A DNA stretch of 38,541 bases. Source: Planctomycetota bacterium (GTDB lineage: Bacteria > Planctomycetota > Phycisphaerae > Phycisphaerales > SM1A02). The notes beneath the pieces are model-generated. The model saw nothing but the letters and a program-made list of their open reading frames with translations, had not been told where the DNA came from and made no database searches. The stretch is taken from contig JADFNO010000015.1 in NCBI GenBank assembly GCA_022563315.1, forward strand, positions 1 to 38,541, read 5' to 3'. Of the stretch, positions 4,167 to 35,961 are shown in pieces; positions within the stretch are counted from its first letter, which is position 1, and each line of letters begins with the position of its first letter. A program made the translations under genes and the position numbers.

Positions 4167-4658
4167 CGCATCGTCCTCTAAAAGGAGCGGTCCTGCTCCT
4201 CACTACGCCATTGTAGGGCACGATCGCAGCCGGTGATCTCTTCGGCCAAGACGCGGACCGATCTGGCGGATATTGCGTGATTTGAGGCAGTTTGGCAAAA
4301 CCAAAGGACTTGGGGCGACCGTTTTCCCGGCGGCGTCATCTGCAATCGGTCCCCGGCGGCTCGGTTCTGTTTGATGGATCACCAGTTTGCGCTGATTGCT
4401 TGGTGGGACGGGCTTCCAGCCCGTCCGTTTCACTGTCTCAGACGGGCAAGATGCCCGTCCCACTATCCATCAGACACAACCTGATCGCTGGGGCGTGGCT
4501 GACTGTCGCGTCGATCGACCCCGTCGAGCCGGCCCGCCCAGACCGTTGCGATTGTCAATGACCCGCGGGAGGTTGATCCGATACTCGCCAATGGAGTCAG
4601 CGAGATTCGCAACTTCAGTCATCACAACCATCGTTTGGAAGAAGGGTTGGCCCACATC
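4167..4658. other. Intergenic region between tatA and mltA
   Basis: These 492 bases lie between divergently transcribed genes. They hold the tatA ribosome-binding site, a small inverted repeat AGGAGC...GCTCCT near 4182-4199, and palindrome family D at 4403-4463. Both promoters must lie here, but no sigma-70-like pair stands out. Short open frames across the repeat only translate the palindrome and are not credible genes. Confidence 0.6.
4403..4463. repeat. Palindromic repeat family D (double hairpin)
   Basis: An outer 11-bp inverted repeat, GTGGGACGGGC (4403-4413) and GCCCGTCCCAC (4453-4463), encloses two matching hairpins. GACGGGC-TTCCA-GCCCGTC lies at 4407-4425 and GACGGGC-AAGAT-GCCCGTC at 4441-4459, each with a 7-bp stem and 5-nt loop. 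Two REP-like hairpins in mirror orientation form a BIME-like unit. Only one unit of this family is seen here, with no transposase beside it. Confidence 0.8.
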
Positions 4659-5912
4659 ATGATGCGCTTCAGAGCCGTGGCAGTTTGTGTCGTTCTTTGC
4701 ACGTTGATCGGCTGCGCAACTAAGCAAGTCGCGCAGATGCCGGTGGAGCCCAAACCGGATTACGCCCGGGCGCTCTCAGATGGCGCGAGCGCCCTGAGCC
4801 TGATCACCGACCCCACGCGGCTGCCCGATCTGGCGGCGGCCTATGCCAATCATGACTCCACGCTGCTGGCGGCGATCGAGCAGAGCCTGGCATGGTTCGC
4901 GGCCCCCTCCAGCCGTCAGTTCTTTCCCTTTGAGCAGATCACACACGAACAGGCACAGGCCAGCCTTCGCGCACTTTACGATCTGCTGGCGAACTCGTAC
5001 GACGAGCCGGCGTTCGTGGCCGACCTCCAGCGGATGTTCGATGTCTATGAATCGGTTGGGTACAACGGCCGGGGCGTCGTGCTGTTCACCGGGTATTACG
5101 CGCCGACGTTCCGCGCCAGCCGAACCCGCACCAGCCGGTTCGCCTATCCGCTTTACAAGCGCCCGCCTGATCTCGTCACTGATCCGGTGACGGGGGAGCC
5201 GCGGGGGCGCAGACGCCTGGACGATTCGATCGGTTCGTACTACACCAGACGCCAGATCGACCAGTCGCGGATGTTTGCGGGCAAGGAGCTGGTGTGGCTC
5301 CAAGACCCACTGTCAGCGTATATTGTCCACATCAATGGCTCGGCGAAACTTCGCCTTGCCGACGGCTCGCTGATGTACATCGGGTATGCGGGCAAGACCG
5401 ATCGCCCCTACACGGGCCTGGGGCAGTCGATGCTCGACGAGGGTTTGCTGCGCACCGAGGAGCTGAGTCTGCCCGCGGTTCGGCGTGTGTATGAACAGAA
5501 TCCGAAGATGGTCACCGAGCTGATCTACCGCAACGAGAACTACGTGTTCTTCACCGAATACGATGGCGACACGTGGCCGGCGGGATCACTGGGCGTGCCG
5601 GTGACGGCACAGCGCACGTTGGCCACCGACAAGAAGGTCTATCCGCGGGGCGGTCTCGTGCTGGTCGATACCAAAGCGGTAACGTTCAGTGAAGGGCAGC
5701 GCGACTTTCTTCAGTTCATGCTCGATCAAGATACGGGCGGCGCGATCCAGGCCCCGGGTCGAGCCGACATTTTCATGGGTGTCGGCGCCAGCGCCGAGAT
5801 TCTCGCCGGCGGCCAGTACGCCGAAGGACGGTTGTATTACTTCTTCCTCAAGGGCGAGTACGTGGGTCAGTACTCGCCGTCCGACCTTGCCGGCGTGGAG
5901 CGAAACCCGTAG
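4659..5912 (+). CDS. mltA: Membrane-bound lytic murein transglycosylase A
   Basis: Lipoprotein enzyme that cleaves peptidoglycan glycan strands non-hydrolytically, giving 1,6-anhydromuropeptides at the inner face of the outer membrane. Starting at the ATG-ATG pair, residues 1-19 form a lipoprotein signal peptide ending in the lipobox LIGC (lipidated Cys19). The MltA domain shows FTGYYAPTF, SAYIVHINGSAKLRLADGS and GQSMLDEG. The 3D-domain segment DTGGAIQAPGRADIFMGVG carries the expected catalytic Asp in GRAD. About 417 residues, near the family norm. An upstream in-frame TTG at 4635 would add eight residues before the signal peptide and is less likely. The TAG stop lies inside a family A palindrome. 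The gene converges on the transglutaminase-like gene. Confidence 0.93.
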   Translation: MMRFRAVAVCVVLCTLIGCATKQVAQMPVEPKPDYARALSDGASALSLITDPTRLPDLAAAYANHDSTLLAAIEQSLAWFAAPSSRQFFPFEQITHEQAQASLRALYDLLANSYDEPAFVADLQRMFDVYESVGYNGRGVVLFTGYYAPTFRASRTRTSRFAYPLYKRPPDLVTDPVTGEPRGRRRLDDSIGSYYTRRQIDQSRMFAGKELVWLQDPLSAYIVHINGSAKLRLADGSLMYIGYAGKTDRPYTGLGQSMLDEGLLRTEELSLPAVRRVYEQNPKMVTELIYRNENYVFFTEYDGDTWPAGSLGVPVTAQRTLATDKKVYPRGGLVLVDTKAVTFSEGQRDFLQFMLDQDTGGAIQAPGRADIFMGVGASAEILAGGQYAEGRLYYFFLKGEYVGQYSPSDLAGVERNP

Positions 5913-5972
5913 GGTCCGCTGTGCGGACCATTGGGCTGCGAACAGCAAGTGGTCCGCACAGCGGACCCTACG
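5908..5972. repeat. Palindromic repeat family A, inverted pair
   Basis: Two copies of a 23-bp element (5908-5930 and 5950-5972) form a perfect inverted repeat around a 19-base spacer. Each copy has its own hairpin, GGTCCGC-TGT-GCGGACC, preceded by CGTA. The TAG of the left copy (5910-5912) is the stop of mltA. The TAG of the right copy, read on the minus strand (5968-5970), is the stop of the converging gene. It is BIME-like and could act as a bidirectional transcription terminator. It matches the copies around the RAYT gene near 34 kb. Confidence 0.95.
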
Positions 5973-7809
5973 AACTGCCGATCTGCCTGAGCACGGCGGC
6001 CGCCTGCTGATGGAGCCCCGCTTCTTGTAAGCGCTGCGCGTACATTTTGCCAACGCGATAGAAATTGCTTTGGCGAAAGAACGGCCCGGCCATGTCCTTG
6101 GGCTTGTTGATGCTATTGAACGCCCGGTCGTAGAGCATCAGGATCTTGCGCCCCTGAGCGGCCGTGCGCAGAATCTTCTCCGCTCGCCGCAGCGCCGTCA
6201 CAACGAACGGCCCGGCATTGGCGTAACGCAAGATGACATCCTCATAGCACGCACCCGCTTTGGTTGGCTCACCCGCGTTCTGCCACATCAATCCCTGGGC
6301 CAGGCGCACTTCCGCCGCAAGATCATGACGATCTGCAAACAGCGCGAACGCCTTGTTCCACATCGCGTTCTGCTCTGTCGTCTCGTCGATGCTCTCGATC
6401 ATCGGCCGAAGGATCGTCAGATAAAAGTCCGGATAGTGCGACCCGCACAGTCGATGAAGCACGGCCGACCAGTGTTTCTTTTGCGTGAGCGTCAGATGCC
6501 CGTTCTCGGCGAGGTCGCGAACAACCATCCAGGCCGCGGCATGACCGGGCGAGATGCGCAGGGCAGTTTCGATCAATTCAAGGATCGTCTCAACGTCCAG
6601 GTCCTCGACTACTCGCGCCGGTCTCGGCGCATCTTCAACAAAGCCGCCGGTCGGTTCGGCGGTCGCCTGCGAACCGCTCAAGAGGCGCAACGCGGCGTCG
6701 GTGAACGCGGCCGCCGCCTGTCGATCGGCGCGCGAGGTTCGAGCCAACTCCGCCAGGAGCGAGATGAAACTGTCGGGGATACGGCGACGAATCTGTGGAT
6801 CGAAAACGTTGCCGCGCACGCCTTGATACTCAGCGTAGCGCCCCATGTCGAAGTTCCACCAGGCGTTTGCGCCGCGCGCCTGGAGGAACCCGACCCACGC
6901 GTGACTGACCGTGCTGGCGCGACCCGAGGCGTAGGCGGTCGGCACGCCGATCGACTTGCCCACCGACATCGCGTAGTACGCTTGATCCGCGCACACCCCG
7001 CCGTACCGAAGAATGTTCGGCAAGTTATAGCCGGCGAGGGTCACCTTTTTCGGCTGACCCCGGCGAAAGTGATCCAGGTCGTACTCAATATCGAAGAATC
7101 GAGCCCCCACCGCCGGATCGCCGGCATATCGACTCAACGCCCACGTCATCTCCGCCACGCTGGCGGTGGTATCGACGACATAGATCAGCAACTCGGCCGG
7201 GACGTCGCGAATGCCGAAGAGCATGCGCTTCTCGTTGGCGACGAAGTAGTCAAAAATTGCCAGGGCGTCGGGTGACTGTCCCACGTTCTCATTCACGCGA
7301 CGCCGAAACGGATCCTCATGCACGACACAAATCGCCGCAACGAGATTCGCGTAGTCGTCGAGCCGATCCGCGCGGTGATTGCGCAGCTTGTTCAACAAGG
7401 CATAGACCTTCGCCGGATCGTCGCGATCGGGCTTGATGAGAAACGCCAGGGTGGTAGCCAGCGCAGCGTTGTCTTGCAGATACTTCAACAGCTCCACGCG
7501 AACCGCTTCGTCCACCTGCTTCAATTGCCGAACCATTCGCAGCGCAAACGCCGCATCGCGAAACAGTTGCTTGTCCTTGCGATCGGCTGAAGCGATGACC
7601 TGATCGAATTGCTGCTGCAGCGCTGCTTGGGCTTGCTCAAAGTCTCCGGATTGCTCAAGTGCATCCAGCGCGGCCGTGGTCTGCCCCCGGATTTGATCCG
7701 CCAATTCGTCAGCTGAAGCGTGGCGCGACACAACGGTTGTCATTGCGAACACCACAATGGCCAGATATTGCGTGATGACTCTTCGTCTTGGAATCAGTGT
7801 GACGATCAA
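5968..7809 (-). CDS. Secreted transglutaminase-like protein
   Basis: Large protein with a central transglutaminase-like cysteine-peptidase core. Numbered from the chosen TTG start, Cys273 lies in GGVCADQAYY, His303 in VSHAWVGF and Asp321 in WNFDMGRY, the expected Cys-His-Asp order. The N-terminus has a basic-then-hydrophobic signal peptide (RRRVITQYLAIVVFAMTTVVSRHASA). About 270 helical residues precede the core and a TPR-like helical region follows it. The frame is open much further upstream but would overlap the preceding gene. TTG at 7809 has GGAG ten bases before it and starts just after that gene's stop. It could be a cell-surface peptidase or cross-linker; the substrate is unknown. The TAG stop is supplied by a family A palindrome. 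Confidence 0.7.
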   Translation of the reverse strand: MIVTLIPRRRVITQYLAIVVFAMTTVVSRHASADELADQIRGQTTAALDALEQSGDFEQAQAALQQQFDQVIASADRKDKQLFRDAAFALRMVRQLKQVDEAVRVELLKYLQDNAALATTLAFLIKPDRDDPAKVYALLNKLRNHRADRLDDYANLVAAICVVHEDPFRRRVNENVGQSPDALAIFDYFVANEKRMLFGIRDVPAELLIYVVDTTASVAEMTWALSRYAGDPAVGARFFDIEYDLDHFRRGQPKKVTLAGYNLPNILRYGGVCADQAYYAMSVGKSIGVPTAYASGRASTVSHAWVGFLQARGANAWWNFDMGRYAEYQGVRGNVFDPQIRRRIPDSFISLLAELARTSRADRQAAAAFTDAALRLLSGSQATAEPTGGFVEDAPRPARVVEDLDVETILELIETALRISPGHAAAWMVVRDLAENGHLTLTQKKHWSAVLHRLCGSHYPDFYLTILRPMIESIDETTEQNAMWNKAFALFADRHDLAAEVRLAQGLMWQNAGEPTKAGACYEDVILRYANAGPFVVTALRRAEKILRTAAQGRKILMLYDRAFNSINKPKDMAGPFFRQSNFYRVGKMYAQRLQEAGLHQQAAAVLRQIGSS

Positions 7810-7822
7810 CTCGGTCAATCTC

Positions 7823-8443
7823 CTACTCGGAATCTGCCTTGGTCGGCGCCGGAGGTGAGAAGTAGTGGATACTAAACGCACCACCCTGTGCAGTGAAATA
7901 CCCCTGATCAACATCCCAAACAAGGTAGCCATTCCCAGGCCAACGGCGATCGCGCAGCAAACTGTCCCGTCCCTTGAGAGCCTCAGCTTCAGCCTCCTTG
8001 CGGAACGCGGCTTCGTCCGCAACCAACCAGCCCTCACTCGCAATAGACCCGACAATCCAAGCGATCAGTGCGAAAGCGGCAAATCGCCTGGCCATCGCCC
8101 AAGTGAATCGATAGGGATCAGGCTGAATCATGCGCGTACCACATTCTTGGCAAATATCACCGCCCGAGGGCGCGACCGGATAGCGGCAAGCCGGGCACAA
8201 GCCGTTCTTGAAACGGCGTCGCTGCACCGTCCGGCTATAGACCTCGGGCAGATCAGATAAGGCAACCGCCGGCGCCAACGGAAGCAGCATCAGCAACGCA
8301 AACAGTGTCGAGCCGATCGCTGTGTTCAGATCAAACCCAAAGCCGTGCTGTTGTGTTCGTGCCAGGGCGTACATGACCAAGACGTGCCCCGCCATCAGCA
8401 GCACGAAAACAATCCGGAAGATGTTGGTCCACGACATCGGCAC
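7823..8443 (-). CDS. Membrane protein with CPxC...CxxC zinc ribbon
   Basis: About 206 residues with hydrophobic segments near residues 9-28, 44-62 and 120-138. A cytosolic zinc ribbon (CPACRYPV and CQECG, Cys83, 86, 98 and 101) lies between the second and third segments. The tail after the last helix is polar and would be outside. The start is uncertain. GTG at 8443 has AGGA nine bases upstream; ATG at 8437 and a TTG overlapping the ubiD stop (8482) are alternatives. It lies directly behind the ubiD-family gene and 14 bases before the transglutaminase-like gene, so the three probably share a transcript. The ribbon resembles that of the small gene at 18222. Function unknown. Confidence 0.65.
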   Translation of the reverse strand: MPMSWTNIFRIVFVLLMAGHVLVMYALARTQQHGFGFDLNTAIGSTLFALLMLLPLAPAVALSDLPEVYSRTVQRRRFKNGLCPACRYPVAPSGGDICQECGTRMIQPDPYRFTWAMARRFAAFALIAWIVGSIASEGWLVADEAAFRKEAEAEALKGRDSLLRDRRWPGNGYLVWDVDQGYFTAQGGAFSIHYFSPPAPTKADSE

Positions 8444-17434: not shown

Positions 17435-17509
17435 TGTAAAGCCGGCGATGGCATCGCCGGGGAACTGCACCAACCGTCCTACCCCGGCGATGCCATCGCC
17501 GGCTTTACA
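17435..17509. repeat. Palindromic repeat family B, inverted pair
   Basis: Two arms of 28 bases (17435-17462 and 17482-17509) form a perfect inverted repeat around a 19-base loop. Each arm contains the near-perfect palindrome CCGGCGATGGCATCGCCGG or its complement and begins or ends in TGTAAAG/CTTTACA. The unit sits ten bases after tRNA-Pro and 21 bases before the transposase start, so it is the upstream flank of that element. Confidence 0.93.
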
Positions 17510-17530: not shown

Positions 17531-18058
17531 ATGCCGCGAACACTTGGGTATCACTATGTGAAATCCGGCTACGGCTTGTGGTTGCCCGGTGATGCTCGTG
17601 GTTCTTGGTCGGAGGCGTGGGACGATCAAATCGGTTTTACCGAGCCGCACACGTTGAATCCGGGCGATCCGGTACGTCAGCGCATGGCCCATGAGCGAAT
17701 GAAGCACCAACCGGTCCGACTCGATGCCACAATGATCGCCGCAGTTGTTGGCGAGATCGACCGATGCGCGGCGTCATCCCCATGGCAAATCGCCGCAGCA
17801 AGCATCGAGTCGACGCACATGCACTTGCTTATCACCTACAGCGGCCTTGATATCAAACGCACCGTCAAATGGCTCGCGCAACAGACAACCAAGGCTGTGC
17901 ATCGTCATACCAATCACGTTGGCCCGGTTTGGTGCCAGGGATATTGGTGCAGCTACGTCTTCGATACAGCCTACTGGACGAATCTGGTTCAATACATCCA
18001 GAGGCACAATCTGCGTCACCGCGAATCCGCCCAACCGTATTCAGTCCTCGCCCTGTAA
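17531..18058 (+). CDS. Y1 (HUH) transposase of the IS200/RAYT type, family B
   Basis: 175-residue single-domain transposase of the Y1/HUH superfamily. The metal-binding motif is HMH at residues 96-98 (IESTHMHLLITYSG), and the likely nucleophile is Tyr155 in LVQYIQRHN. The N-terminus has GYGLWLPGDARGSWSEAWDD. Such enzymes nick and join single-stranded DNA at hairpins. No terminal inverted repeats or second ORF are visible. Instead, matching palindromes lie on both sides (17435-17509 and 18054-18079), as expected for a REP-associated single-copy gene. The TAA stop falls within the downstream palindrome copy. The ATG at 17531 is the first start after the upstream palindromes. Domesticated function is inferred, not shown. 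Confidence 0.85.
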   Translation: MPRTLGYHYVKSGYGLWLPGDARGSWSEAWDDQIGFTEPHTLNPGDPVRQRMAHERMKHQPVRLDATMIAAVVGEIDRCAASSPWQIAAASIESTHMHLLITYSGLDIKRTVKWLAQQTTKAVHRHTNHVGPVWCQGYWCSYVFDTAYWTNLVQYIQRHNLRHRESAQPYSVLAL

Positions 18059-18079
18059 CCCCGGCGATGGCATCGCCGG
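18054..18079 (+). repeat. Palindromic repeat family B, downstream copy
   Basis: A 26-base copy matching the left arm at 17435-17460 in 24 positions. It contains CCGGCGATGGCATCGCCGG at 18061-18079. It begins TGTAA, and the TAA (18056-18058) is the stop codon of the transposase. Confidence 0.9.
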
Positions 18080-30577: not shown

Positions 30578-30682
30578 CCCCCCTCCCTTTGAGGGGAGGG
30601 GCGAGGGGGTGGGGTGATTGGTCCGTTGTTCTAACAAGCCCAACCCACCCCCCAACCCCCTCCCTGGAAGGGAGGGGGAGTG
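30578..30682. repeat. C/G-rich inverted pair, family F
   Basis: The left unit (30578-30614: CCCCCCTCCCTTTGAGGGG then a G-rich tail) and the right unit (30639-30682) are inverted, imperfect copies. Each is itself a hairpin of CCCTCCC against GGGAGGG type. They fill the gap between aspS and asnB. A related unit lies inside asnB at 32120-32155. Confidence 0.8.
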
Positions 30683-32630: not shown

Positions 32631-32673
32631 CCCTCCCTGCAAAGCTCGGCCGTTGGCGGTACCCTTTGCGGCC

Positions 32674-34020
32674 ATGAAGCACGGAAACCTGCTCACCGTT
32701 CTGATTCTGATCGGCCTGGCGGCTGGTTGTGTGTACGGACAGTTCGTGCTGTTCGGATCGATGGGCGACGATCCGGATGCGCACTGGACCAAACAGGCGG
32801 GCGATCTAATTCTCATCCGCCCGTTGTTCCTGCTCATCATCCCGCTGGTCTTCGTCAGTGTCGTCGTCGGCATGACATCGATCGGCGATCCATCCAAGTT
32901 GGGTCTGATCGGCTCCTCAACTGTTCTTTACTATCTCGTGACCATGCTGATCGCGGTGACGATCGGCGCGATCTTGGTAACCTCGTTTCGACCGGGCGAT
33001 CTTTCGGATGAAGCGGCGGCCAAACTTCGCGGCGATGCCCAGGTTGAATACGACGCCTCGGATATCAAGGGCAACATCGAGGAGGCAGCCGACCGCGGCC
33101 AGGATCGCCTCGGCGGAGCGTGGATGAACATTCTGCGCCAGATGGTGCCGCGGAATATCTTTGACGAGATGGCCAAGGGGCGCACATTAGGCGTCATCAT
33201 GTTCGCGATACTATTTGGCTTGGCGTTAGCGGCGGGCGGCGATGCGACCAAACCCGTGATACGGCTGTTTGAAGGTCTTTTTGCCGCCGTCATGAAACTG
33301 GTTCTGTGGGTCATCTGGCTCACCCCAGCCGGGGTCTTTCTGCTCGTCGCGTGGACGGTCGGCAAGGTGGGCTTTGGAGAACTGGTCGGCCCACTTTCCA
33401 AATACATTGCGGTGGTGCTGACGGGATTGGCCATTCACGGATTCATCGTGCTGCCGTTGATTCTCTTGCTGTTCACCCGCAAGAACCCGTATCGGTACAT
33501 GTTCCAGATGCGGCGGGCCCTGATGACCGCATTCGGCACCGACTCCAGCGCAGCCACGCTTCCGGTGACGCTTGAAAGCGCCCAGGGCGAGGGCGGGTGC
33601 TCCAAGCGCGCCGCGAACTTTGTTCTGCCGCTGGGCGCAACCGTCAACATGGATGGCACCGCGCTCTACGAAGCCGTCGCCGTCGTCTTCCTCTTCCAGC
33701 TCTGGGGGATCGATCTCAGCTTCACCGAGCTGCTCATCGTGATCATCACCGCGACCTTGGCGGCCGTCGGCGCGGCCGGCATCCCATCCGCCGGCACCAT
33801 CACCATGGTCATCGTCATCCTCGCCGTCAATCAAGGCCTGCAAGGTCGAGGCTTCGCTCAATCCGAGTTGCTGCCGACCGCCGCGATCGGCGTGATCATC
33901 GGCGTGGATCGCATCGTCGATATGTGCCGAACCACCGTCAACGTGTGGGGCGACGCCGTCGGGGCGAAGATCATCACCAAACTCGCGCCGGACCCCGAGC
34001 AGGATTTGGAAGCACCGTAG
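32674..34020 (+). CDS. Dicarboxylate/amino acid:cation symporter (DAACS family)
   Basis: GltP/DctA-type secondary transporter of 448 residues for glutamate, aspartate or C4-dicarboxylates with Na+ or H+. Signature blocks: LPLGATVNMDGTALYEAVAV (NMDGT), AAGIPSAGTITMVIV (HP2 loop) and VDRIVDMCRTTVNVWGDAVG. A charged insert of about 45 residues (SDEAAAKLRGDAQVEYDA and beyond) lies between early helices. ATG at 32674 is chosen over an in-frame TTG at 32653 because the first helix (LLTVLILIGLAAGCVYG) follows closely. The stop TAG (34018-34020) is part of a family A palindrome that borders the RAYT gene. Exact substrate not predictable. Confidence 0.92.
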   Translation: MKHGNLLTVLILIGLAAGCVYGQFVLFGSMGDDPDAHWTKQAGDLILIRPLFLLIIPLVFVSVVVGMTSIGDPSKLGLIGSSTVLYYLVTMLIAVTIGAILVTSFRPGDLSDEAAAKLRGDAQVEYDASDIKGNIEEAADRGQDRLGGAWMNILRQMVPRNIFDEMAKGRTLGVIMFAILFGLALAAGGDATKPVIRLFEGLFAAVMKLVLWVIWLTPAGVFLLVAWTVGKVGFGELVGPLSKYIAVVLTGLAIHGFIVLPLILLLFTRKNPYRYMFQMRRALMTAFGTDSSAATLPVTLESAQGEGGCSKRAANFVLPLGATVNMDGTALYEAVAVVFLFQLWGIDLSFTELLIVIITATLAAVGAAGIPSAGTITMVIVILAVNQGLQGRGFAQSELLPTAAIGVIIGVDRIVDMCRTTVNVWGDAVGAKIITKLAPDPEQDLEAP

Positions 34021-34066
34021 GGTCCGCTGTGCGGACCATCTTCCCCCCACCGCTGTGCGGACCATC
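34016..34066 (+). repeat. Palindromic repeat family A, RAYT upstream copies
   Basis: A full copy (34016-34038) is followed by a partial one (34049-34066) that shares CCGCTGTGCGGACCATC. The TAG of the first (34018-34020) stops the symporter gene. The GTG inside the second (34055-34057) is the only plausible start of the transposase. Confidence 0.93.
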
Positions 34067-34663
34067 CGGGCGCGATACGATACTCAAATTCCCAACTATC
34101 GACGGGTCTACATCCCAGGAGGCACGTTCTTCTTCACCGTCGTAACGGAAAACCGCGAACCCTTTCTTTGCGACGATCGTGCCCGCGACATCTTGAGAAC
34201 ATCCATCGAAAACTGTCGGCACAAATGGCCGATGACGATCGACGCAATCGTGCTGCTTCCAGATCACCTTCATACGATCTGGACGCTGCCCACCAACGAC
34301 AGTGATTACTCCCGGCGATGGGCATGGATCAAGAAGGAGTTCACCAAGGCATGGCTCGCCGGTCATGGAAAAGAACAGCCAAGGAGTGATTCGCGCATCG
34401 CGAATCGCCGGCGCGGCGTTTGGCAACGTCGTTTTTGGGAGCACGCAATCCGAAACGACGACGATTTGATCAATCATGTCGAATACATTCACTACAACCC
34501 GATCAAGCATGGGTTGGTCAAGTGCCCTCACAACTGGCCGTACTCAAGCTTCCATCGGTACGTGGCTCAAGGCGTGTATCCGCAAGATTGGGCGTGCGCA
34601 TGCAAGTCGGATAAGCCACACGTTGCCAATTACGATGAAATCGCCAAGCAAGCAGGAGAATAA
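34055..34663 (+). CDS. REP-associated tyrosine transposase (RAYT), family A
   Basis: 202-residue Y1/HUH transposase of the REP-associated group. The N-terminus has NYRRVYIPGGTFFFTVVTEN. The HUH motif is HLH at 71-73 (LLPDHLHTIWTLP), FWEHAIRNDDDLINH precedes the conserved HVEYIHYNPIKHGLV (nucleophile Tyr144 or Tyr147), and WPYSSFHRYV closes the domain. Such enzymes bind and cut REP hairpins. No ATG lies before the conserved region; the only usual start is GTG at 34055, inside a family A palindrome, which implies that translation begins in the repeat. Five full family A copies flank it (one before, four after). Intact motifs suggest an active or recently active enzyme. Confidence 0.92.
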   Translation: MRTIRARYDTQIPNYRRVYIPGGTFFFTVVTENREPFLCDDRARDILRTSIENCRHKWPMTIDAIVLLPDHLHTIWTLPTNDSDYSRRWAWIKKEFTKAWLAGHGKEQPRSDSRIANRRRGVWQRRFWEHAIRNDDDLINHVEYIHYNPIKHGLVKCPHNWPYSSFHRYVAQGVYPQDWACACKSDKPHVANYDEIAKQAGE

Positions 34664-34713
34664 TTCGGGTACACGGTTCGGTGAGTTGGCCGACTTTGCC
34701 GGCGAATAAGAAT

Positions 34714-34805
34714 GGTCCGCACAGCGGACCCTACGGAGCCCATCTCTATTCGTAGGGTCCGCTGTGCGGACAATCCGCTCCAACCGTAGGGTCCGCTGTG
34801 CGGAC
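34714..34805. repeat. Palindromic repeat family A, three copies
   Basis: One minus-oriented copy (34714-34735) faces two plus-oriented copies (34751-34771 and 34785-34805). All share the hairpin GGTCCGCTGTGCGGAC. Spacers are 15 and 13 bases. Confidence 0.93.
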
Positions 34806-34957
34806 AATCTTCATTGAGCGTCCTGCCGTGGTCGGGTGCTCAACAAGCGACGCCCTTCTATTCCAAGAAGCACTTTCTTTTTGCTACACCGTCCGGACGT
34901 GGAACAATCCAGGTAGGCGGCTCGCAGAATTGGTCGATTCTGCCAGCGAATAAGAAT

Positions 34958-34979
34958 GGTCCGCACAGCGGACCCTACG
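34958..34979 (-). repeat. Palindromic repeat family A, distal copy
   Basis: A minus-oriented copy identical in the core to that at 34714-34735. It is preceded by the same 28-base left flank with four differences. It lies directly downstream of trxB, where it may act as terminator. Confidence 0.92.
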
Positions 34980-34986
34980 CCTACGC

Positions 34987-35961
34987 CTACGCCAATCCCT
35001 GGGTTCCCAGCCAGCGCTCGGCATCGATCGCCGCCTGGCATCCCATGCCCGCTGCCGTCACCGCTTGGCGGTATTCACTGTCCGCCACGTCGCCGCCGGC
35101 AAACACGCCCTCGATGTTCGTTTCGCTACTGCGGTTGGGCAGCTTGACGTAGCCCGCATCATCAAGCTCGATGCCCGAGCCGTTGAGGAATCCCGTGGCC
35201 GGCGTGTGACCGATGGCCACGAACAACCCTTTGACGTCCAGCCGCGTTTCATCACCCGTGACGGTGTCCTTGAGCATCACGGCTTCTATCTTTTCCTCGC
35301 CAACGACTTCGCTAACAATCTTGTTCCACGCAACCTCAACGTTCGGCAACCCAAGCGTCCGCTCCTGCATGATGTTGGAGGCACGCAGTTTGTCGCGACG
35401 ATGGATAATCGTCACCTTCGAGGCGAACTTGCTGAGGTACGCCGATTCCTCCATCGCCGTATCACCACCGCCGACGACCGCTAAGTGCTGATCGCGGAAA
35501 ACCGGCAGCGCTCCATCACATACAGCACACGCACTCACCCCGCCGCCGGTTTGCGCCAAGCGAAGTTCGTTCTCCTGCCCCATCCAATTCGCGGTTGCGC
35601 CCGTCGCGATAATTACCGCGTGGCCTTGCACGACCGATCCGTCAGAGGTTGTGAGTTTAAACGGTCGTGACGAGAAGTCACACGCCTCGATATCCTGTCC
35701 AACCACGCGCGTTCCAAATCGTTCAGCCTGCTTTTGGAAGTGCTGCATCATTTCCGGGCCGGTGATCCCATCCGGAAAGCCCGGATAGTTCTCGACTTCC
35801 GTGGTCAACATGAGCTGCCCGCCGGGCAACACGGGGGCCGGGTTTTGTTTCGGCACGCCGATGAAACAGATCGGATCGAGGTTCGCGCGGGCGGCATAGA
35901 TCGCGGCCGTCCAGCCGGCCGGTCCGCTGCCGATGATGATCAACTTCTCGACTTCGGCCAT
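34987..35961 (-). CDS. trxB: Thioredoxin-disulfide reductase
   Basis: FAD/NADPH enzyme that reduces thioredoxin in the cytoplasm. The FAD-binding motif is GSGPAGWTAAIYAARAN (11-27). The redox pair Cys145 and Cys148 lies in SACAVCDGALP. The NADPH-binding VVGGGDTAMEEA-type segment (here VVGGGDTAMEESAYL) and C-terminal GVFAGGDVADSEYRQAVTAAGMG are intact. 324 residues, the normal low-molecular-weight type. ATG at 35961. It is a single gene with a palindrome at its 3' end; thioredoxin itself is not in the window. Confidence 0.96.
   Translation of the reverse strand: MAEVEKLIIIGSGPAGWTAAIYAARANLDPICFIGVPKQNPAPVLPGGQLMLTTEVENYPGFPDGITGPEMMQHFQKQAERFGTRVVGQDIEACDFSSRPFKLTTSDGSVVQGHAVIIATGATANWMGQENELRLAQTGGGVSACAVCDGALPVFRDQHLAVVGGGDTAMEESAYLSKFASKVTIIHRRDKLRASNIMQERTLGLPNVEVAWNKIVSEVVGEEKIEAVMLKDTVTGDETRLDVKGLFVAIGHTPATGFLNGSGIELDDAGYVKLPNRSSETNIEGVFAGGDVADSEYRQAVTAAGMGCQAAIDAERWLGTQGLA

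Follow-up and report, generated by a model that had tools for sequence, protein, structure and literature searches.

What allows two convergent genes of a planctomycete to end in TAG codons supplied by one and the same palindrome? The palindrome lies at positions 5908-5972 of the window, by which we mean the whole stretch of 38,541 nucleotides analysed here. It separates mltA (murein transglycosylase A, 4635-5912, forward strand) from a transglutaminase-like gene (5968-8055, reverse strand). The former encodes an MltA domain (E=2e-46) and a 3D domain (E=6e-16), the latter gives a weak, sub-threshold match to Transglut_core (E=0.0013), and both genes have orthologues in relatives.

An inverted REP doublet between convergent genes

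The palindrome is made up of two REP copies. The copy CGTAGGGTCCGCTGTGCGGACCA occupies 5908-5930 on the forward strand, and its TAG (5910-5912) is the stop codon of mltA. Beyond a 19-nt spacer (5931-5949, no strand), the perfect reverse complement of CGTAGGGTCCGCTGTGCGGACCA is found at 5950-5972 (inverted pair I13, 23 nt, 100%), a reverse-strand copy that ends the transglutaminase-like gene with its TAG (5970-5968). Sequence, coordinates and ORF ends agree with the preliminary description of this DNA, which had reported a perfect 23-bp inverted pair holding the TAG stops of two convergent genes. Each copy is composed of a GTAG head and a hairpin, GGTCCGC-TGT-GCGGACC, with a 7-bp GC stem and a TGT loop, and the stem starts at the base right after the TAG. 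The arrangement is that of a GTAG REP, with the tetranucleotide at the base of a short, GC-rich hairpin on its 5' side, and each TAG belongs to one of the two outward-facing GTAG heads of an inverted REP doublet lying between convergent genes. Folding gave -17.6 kcal/mol for a single REP hairpin (z -3.4) and -68.3 kcal/mol for the 65-nt doublet, compared to -37.3 kcal/mol for shuffles (z -8). An Rfam search of the window returned tRNAs only.

The gap between mltA and the transglutaminase-like gene carries REPs in other species as well. In the sister species G001 and in G002, it holds another GTAG-headed hairpin family, GTAGGGCAGGCC-TTG-GGCCTGCC (loci L178 and L179), and in G014 (L180) a related GTAG-headed hairpin is located a few bases past the mltA stop. 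The mltA gene of Planctomycetota MAG B3D1T2 (L080) also stops at the TAG of the REP family from 5908-5972. With GTAG-headed families differing by species, the gap appears to attract REPs as if it were a hot spot. Elsewhere in the window, a GTGG-headed inverted pair, GTGGGACGGGCTTCCAGCCCGTC / GACGGGCAAGATGCCCGTCCCAC, is present upstream of mltA (4403-4463) and looks like a further REP family, and a 38-nt G/C-rich inverted repeat (CCCCCTCCCTTTGAGGGGAGGGG...) lies between two genes at 30579-30678.

REP copies and the RAYT segment

The window contains seven exact copies of the 20-nt REP core, against three in the preliminary description. The whole genome (3.76 Mb, 298 contigs) contains 16 exact copies, or 25 if up to three mismatches are allowed, whereas a reversed control pattern gave none and one, respectively, in the same genome; the copy number of the REP is not due to chance. 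The copies are dispersed over many contigs, and 0/25 lie inside a called gene. Twelve of the 25 have an inverted tail-to-tail partner, with gaps of 23-34 nt between the 20-nt cores, and the paired copies are mostly doublets with the heads outward.

The REP is also carried by two genomes of the same genus and by several members of the family and of the order. Many Planctomycetota MAGs contain the exact 22-mer, and so do Adhaeretor, Botrimarina and members of the Chromatiaceae (Lamprocystis and Thiodictyon, for example), making one REP core identical letter for letter in Planctomycetota and purple sulphur bacteria. It is possible that the RAYT/REP pair was horizontally transferred between Planctomycetota and Chromatiaceae. 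Loci with the exact 22-nt core common to both groups include L060, L065, L070, L078 and L118, among others.

Several of the copies in the window surround a transposase gene. The sodium:dicarboxylate symporter family gene (32653-34020, forward strand; SDF E=3e-111; orthologues in relatives) ends at TAG 34018-34020 inside a forward REP copy (34016-34039), in accordance with the earlier claim that a third copy provides the symporter stop. A partial REP remnant, CCGCTGTGCGGACCATC (34050-34066, forward strand), overlaps the annotated start of the ORF of a REP-associated tyrosine transposase (RAYT; 34055-34663, forward strand), whose start codon is uncertain. The remaining copies are located downstream of the RAYT gene at 34713-34735 (reverse strand), at 34751-34774 and 34785-34805 (both forward) and at 34957-34979 (reverse), the last being 12 nt beyond the stop of a thioredoxin reductase gene (34987-35961, reverse strand).

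The RAYT protein matches the NF047646 profile with E=1e-58 and 197 bits (cut-off 80), and its score with Pfam Y1_Tnp (22.5 bits) is just below the cut-off of 23. It matches E. coli TnpA-REP (PDB 4er8) over 168 residues with E=1.6e-42, and HLH and YIHYNP motifs can be seen in its translation, giving it a Y1 / HUH core of the REP-associated type. The gene, on which the preliminary description is silent, is flanked by the same repeat, sitting between the copies at 34016 and 34713, and this RAYT is likely to mobilise the REP family of the doublet. Three genomes (G014, G026 and G039) contain the REP and gave no close RAYT match, some of these assemblies being incomplete.

On contig C18 of G001 (L250), the REP-flanked RAYT segment (34050-34736 of the window) is inverted between collinear flanks, the segment matching the window in reverse orientation (87.6%) and the flanks in forward orientation (94.8% and 88.7%). 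The RAYT gene of G001 is split over two frames. Recombination between inverted REPs would explain the inversion of this segment. The window encodes a second, IS200-like Y1 transposase (17531-18058, forward strand; Pfam Y1_Tnp E=6e-8; 39 bits to the RAYT model, sub-cut-off). It adjoins a palindromic repeat family of its own, TGTAAAGCCGGCGATGGCATCGCCGG, with copies at 17435-17462, 17482-17509 and 18050-18079, and its TAA stop (18056-18058) falls within a copy of this repeat.

TAG stops, gene ends and orthologues without the REP

To count how often the REP head serves as a stop codon, we used 325 distinct copies with up to two mismatches (25 from this genome, 85 from relatives and 215 from named genomes) and genes called on MAG contigs with a codon model built for this analysis. 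The head is faced by a gene 3' end in 196 copies and by a 5' end in 112, which bears out the earlier proposal that the element inserts at, or is retained at, gene ends. Convergent gaps hold 82 copies, and divergent gaps 24 of 286. In 24 of the 325 copies (19 under stricter gene criteria), the REP TAG ends a gene in frame. The set mixes related genomes, so that its copies are not all independent, and the symporter site, a single ancestral insertion shared by this genome (G000) and G001, enters it twice. Four of the 25 copies in this genome are stops, namely those at mltA, the transglutaminase-like gene, the symporter and mnmE (contig C236). The doublet at 5908-5972 is the only one in the set that serves two genes.

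Position and frame of these stops are both biased. A distance of 0 between gene end and TAG was found for 24 copies, whereas the positions from -5 to -30 together account for 46, or 1.8 per nt (P ~3e-19). Of the roughly 30 genes that run into the head, about 24 do so in the stop frame and about six in another frame (P ~2e-7 versus one third). The expectation that in-frame TAG stops would be in excess among copies of this genome and its relatives is borne out by this sharp peak and frame bias; it is not borne out by comparison with ordinary words near gene ends. Within 150 nt past a gene end, REP heads are in-frame stops in 15% of cases (24/156), compared to 27-32% for control words (ordinary GTAG, CGTAG, GTAGGG and TAG), although the ordinary GTAGs include native stops kept by selection and are not a null for an inserted element. 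Given the higher stop frequency of ordinary GTAGs shortly after gene ends, the data show no special stop-seeking. The special affinity for TAG stops suggested earlier was not supported, and the candidate designation of a special stop-supplying element was discarded.

Since the orthologues without the REP end within a few codons of the REP-bearing gene ends, the proteins are not truncated and the REP is located at the natural gene end. At the symporter, the REP is common to this genome and G001, and the native stop was probably replaced, because REP-less G014 has TAA at the same codon. The mltA genes of G001 and G002 stop about nine codons earlier with TGA and have a different tail sequence, and that of G014 stops two codons earlier with TAA. 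The transglutaminase-like gene of G001 and G002 stops one codon earlier with TAG (TAGGG), followed by GGATTT. At mnmE, the REP-less orthologues of G001 and G014 have their stop at the same codon, likewise TAG, in unrelated sequence, which is the outcome that the preliminary description had named as contradicting its proposal. For a gene of G026 (L290), the REP-less orthologues of G061, G005 and G014 all end with TAG, located three codons earlier, at the same codon and six codons later, respectively. On contig C40 (L018) and at its G001 orthologue (L263), the common REP has diverged and the TAG is still the stop in both. A region of about 130 nt with a REP pair on contig C289 is present in G000 and G001 and absent from G002, and for a G001 copy with an in-frame TAG (L257) no orthologous region was found in G000 or G002.

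Native TAG stops at mnmE, the transglutaminase-like gene and the G026 locus are what one would expect if RAYT insertion recognised TAG in its target and new REPs were laid preferentially over existing TAG stops. The nearest REP-less relative already has TAG in three of five genes, compared to 23-26% of stops generally, a hint at a TAG preference that is suggestive only (P ~0.10, binomial estimate) and not significant. However, other stops stood at the symporter and mltA, the TAG of most copies ends no gene, and near gene ends a REP TAG is less likely than an ordinary GTAG to be a stop; we regard such targeting as quite unlikely. The opposite reading, that REPs land randomly in gene ends with their TAG sometimes in frame by pure coincidence, agrees with the low stop fraction of the REP heads and with the doublet at 5908-5972 being alone in serving two genes. 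It is disfavoured by the peak at distance 0 and by the over-representation of the stop frame, while the low stop fraction was measured against a control holding selected native stops; coincidence alone is very unlikely.

The doublet might instead owe its retention chiefly to bidirectional termination of transcription for the two convergent genes, which would be consistent with its folding far better than shuffles, with the preference for convergent over divergent gaps and with the presence of another REP family in the same gap of the sister species. Nevertheless, no T-tract follows the GC hairpin on the forward strand, for which reason classification as an intrinsic terminator was rejected, and a terminator consensus scan stayed at chance level, with one match (weak, on the reverse strand) versus 0.7 expected. 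The gap of the sister species also does without the REP family of 5908-5972, and we consider retention for termination unlikely.

Proposed explanation and known GTAG REPs

In our opinion, it is highly probable that the palindrome is a GTAG-headed REP doublet spread by the RAYT, inserted at gene 3' ends and retained where its head falls on the native stop or takes its place. The RAYT would move the REP as a single-stranded hairpin, a transposition that we infer rather than observe, and copies would build up at gene 3' ends, where they presumably do least harm. The GTAG at the hairpin foot would be the guide tetranucleotide recognised by the transposase, so the TAG would be present for reasons of transposition. 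When a copy lands at or over the last codons of a gene, the head frame would read TAG and end the protein at once, while the two other frames would read on through the hairpin. Since only the head frame stops at once, the copies kept would be those with TAG in frame at the natural end or laid over a native TAG, and selection against read-through would maintain these in-frame cases. With a head at either outer edge, a single doublet could serve two convergent genes. By analogy with the REPs of E. coli, plausible side effects are that ribosomes stall at these stops and that the 3' end of the mRNA is protected.

The palindrome at 5908-5972 is confirmed as an example of a known behaviour, published in 2013, of an element type that is itself known. 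According to that publication (Di Nocera 2013, PMC3733652), the termini of GTAG REPs "often provide" a TAG stop to flanking ORFs; the same paper mentions GTAG repeats in Planctomycetes and names the TAG stop opal, although TAG is amber. The new part is the orthologue evidence from a planctomycete and its relatives, which does not appear to favour a special stop preference and adds comparisons on a habit of GTAG REPs that is known but has seldom been quantified. This habit needs no stop-seeking, because REP TAGs near gene ends serve as stops less frequently than ordinary GTAGs do.

The repeat resembles the GTAG-tagged REPs and their dimers or BIMEs (PMC3733652; Nunvar 2010, PMC2817692) in its GTAG head, short GC-rich hairpin, inverted doublets, preference for gene 3' ends and termini that give TAG stops. 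In contrast to the REPs of PMC3733652, its copy number is low (25) and no numbered family was matched; a literature search with the exact REP core returned unrelated matches only. TnpA-REP recognises GTAG as its guide sequence (PMC6006769), and the window protein resembles the E. coli enzyme (4er8) by sequence match and by having its gene among repeat copies. Unlike that comparison case, sister species G001 has the RAYT gene split in two frames and the segment inverted. REPs located no more than 15 nt from a stop codon stall the ribosomes of E. coli (Liang 2015, as cited in PMC12306157). The present REPs share with these, as far as that citation describes them, a stable hairpin shortly past the stop codon and differ from them in that the stop lies within the REP, at distance 0, and genes with the stop right against a 7-bp GC hairpin represent natural test cases for REP-induced ribosome stalling.
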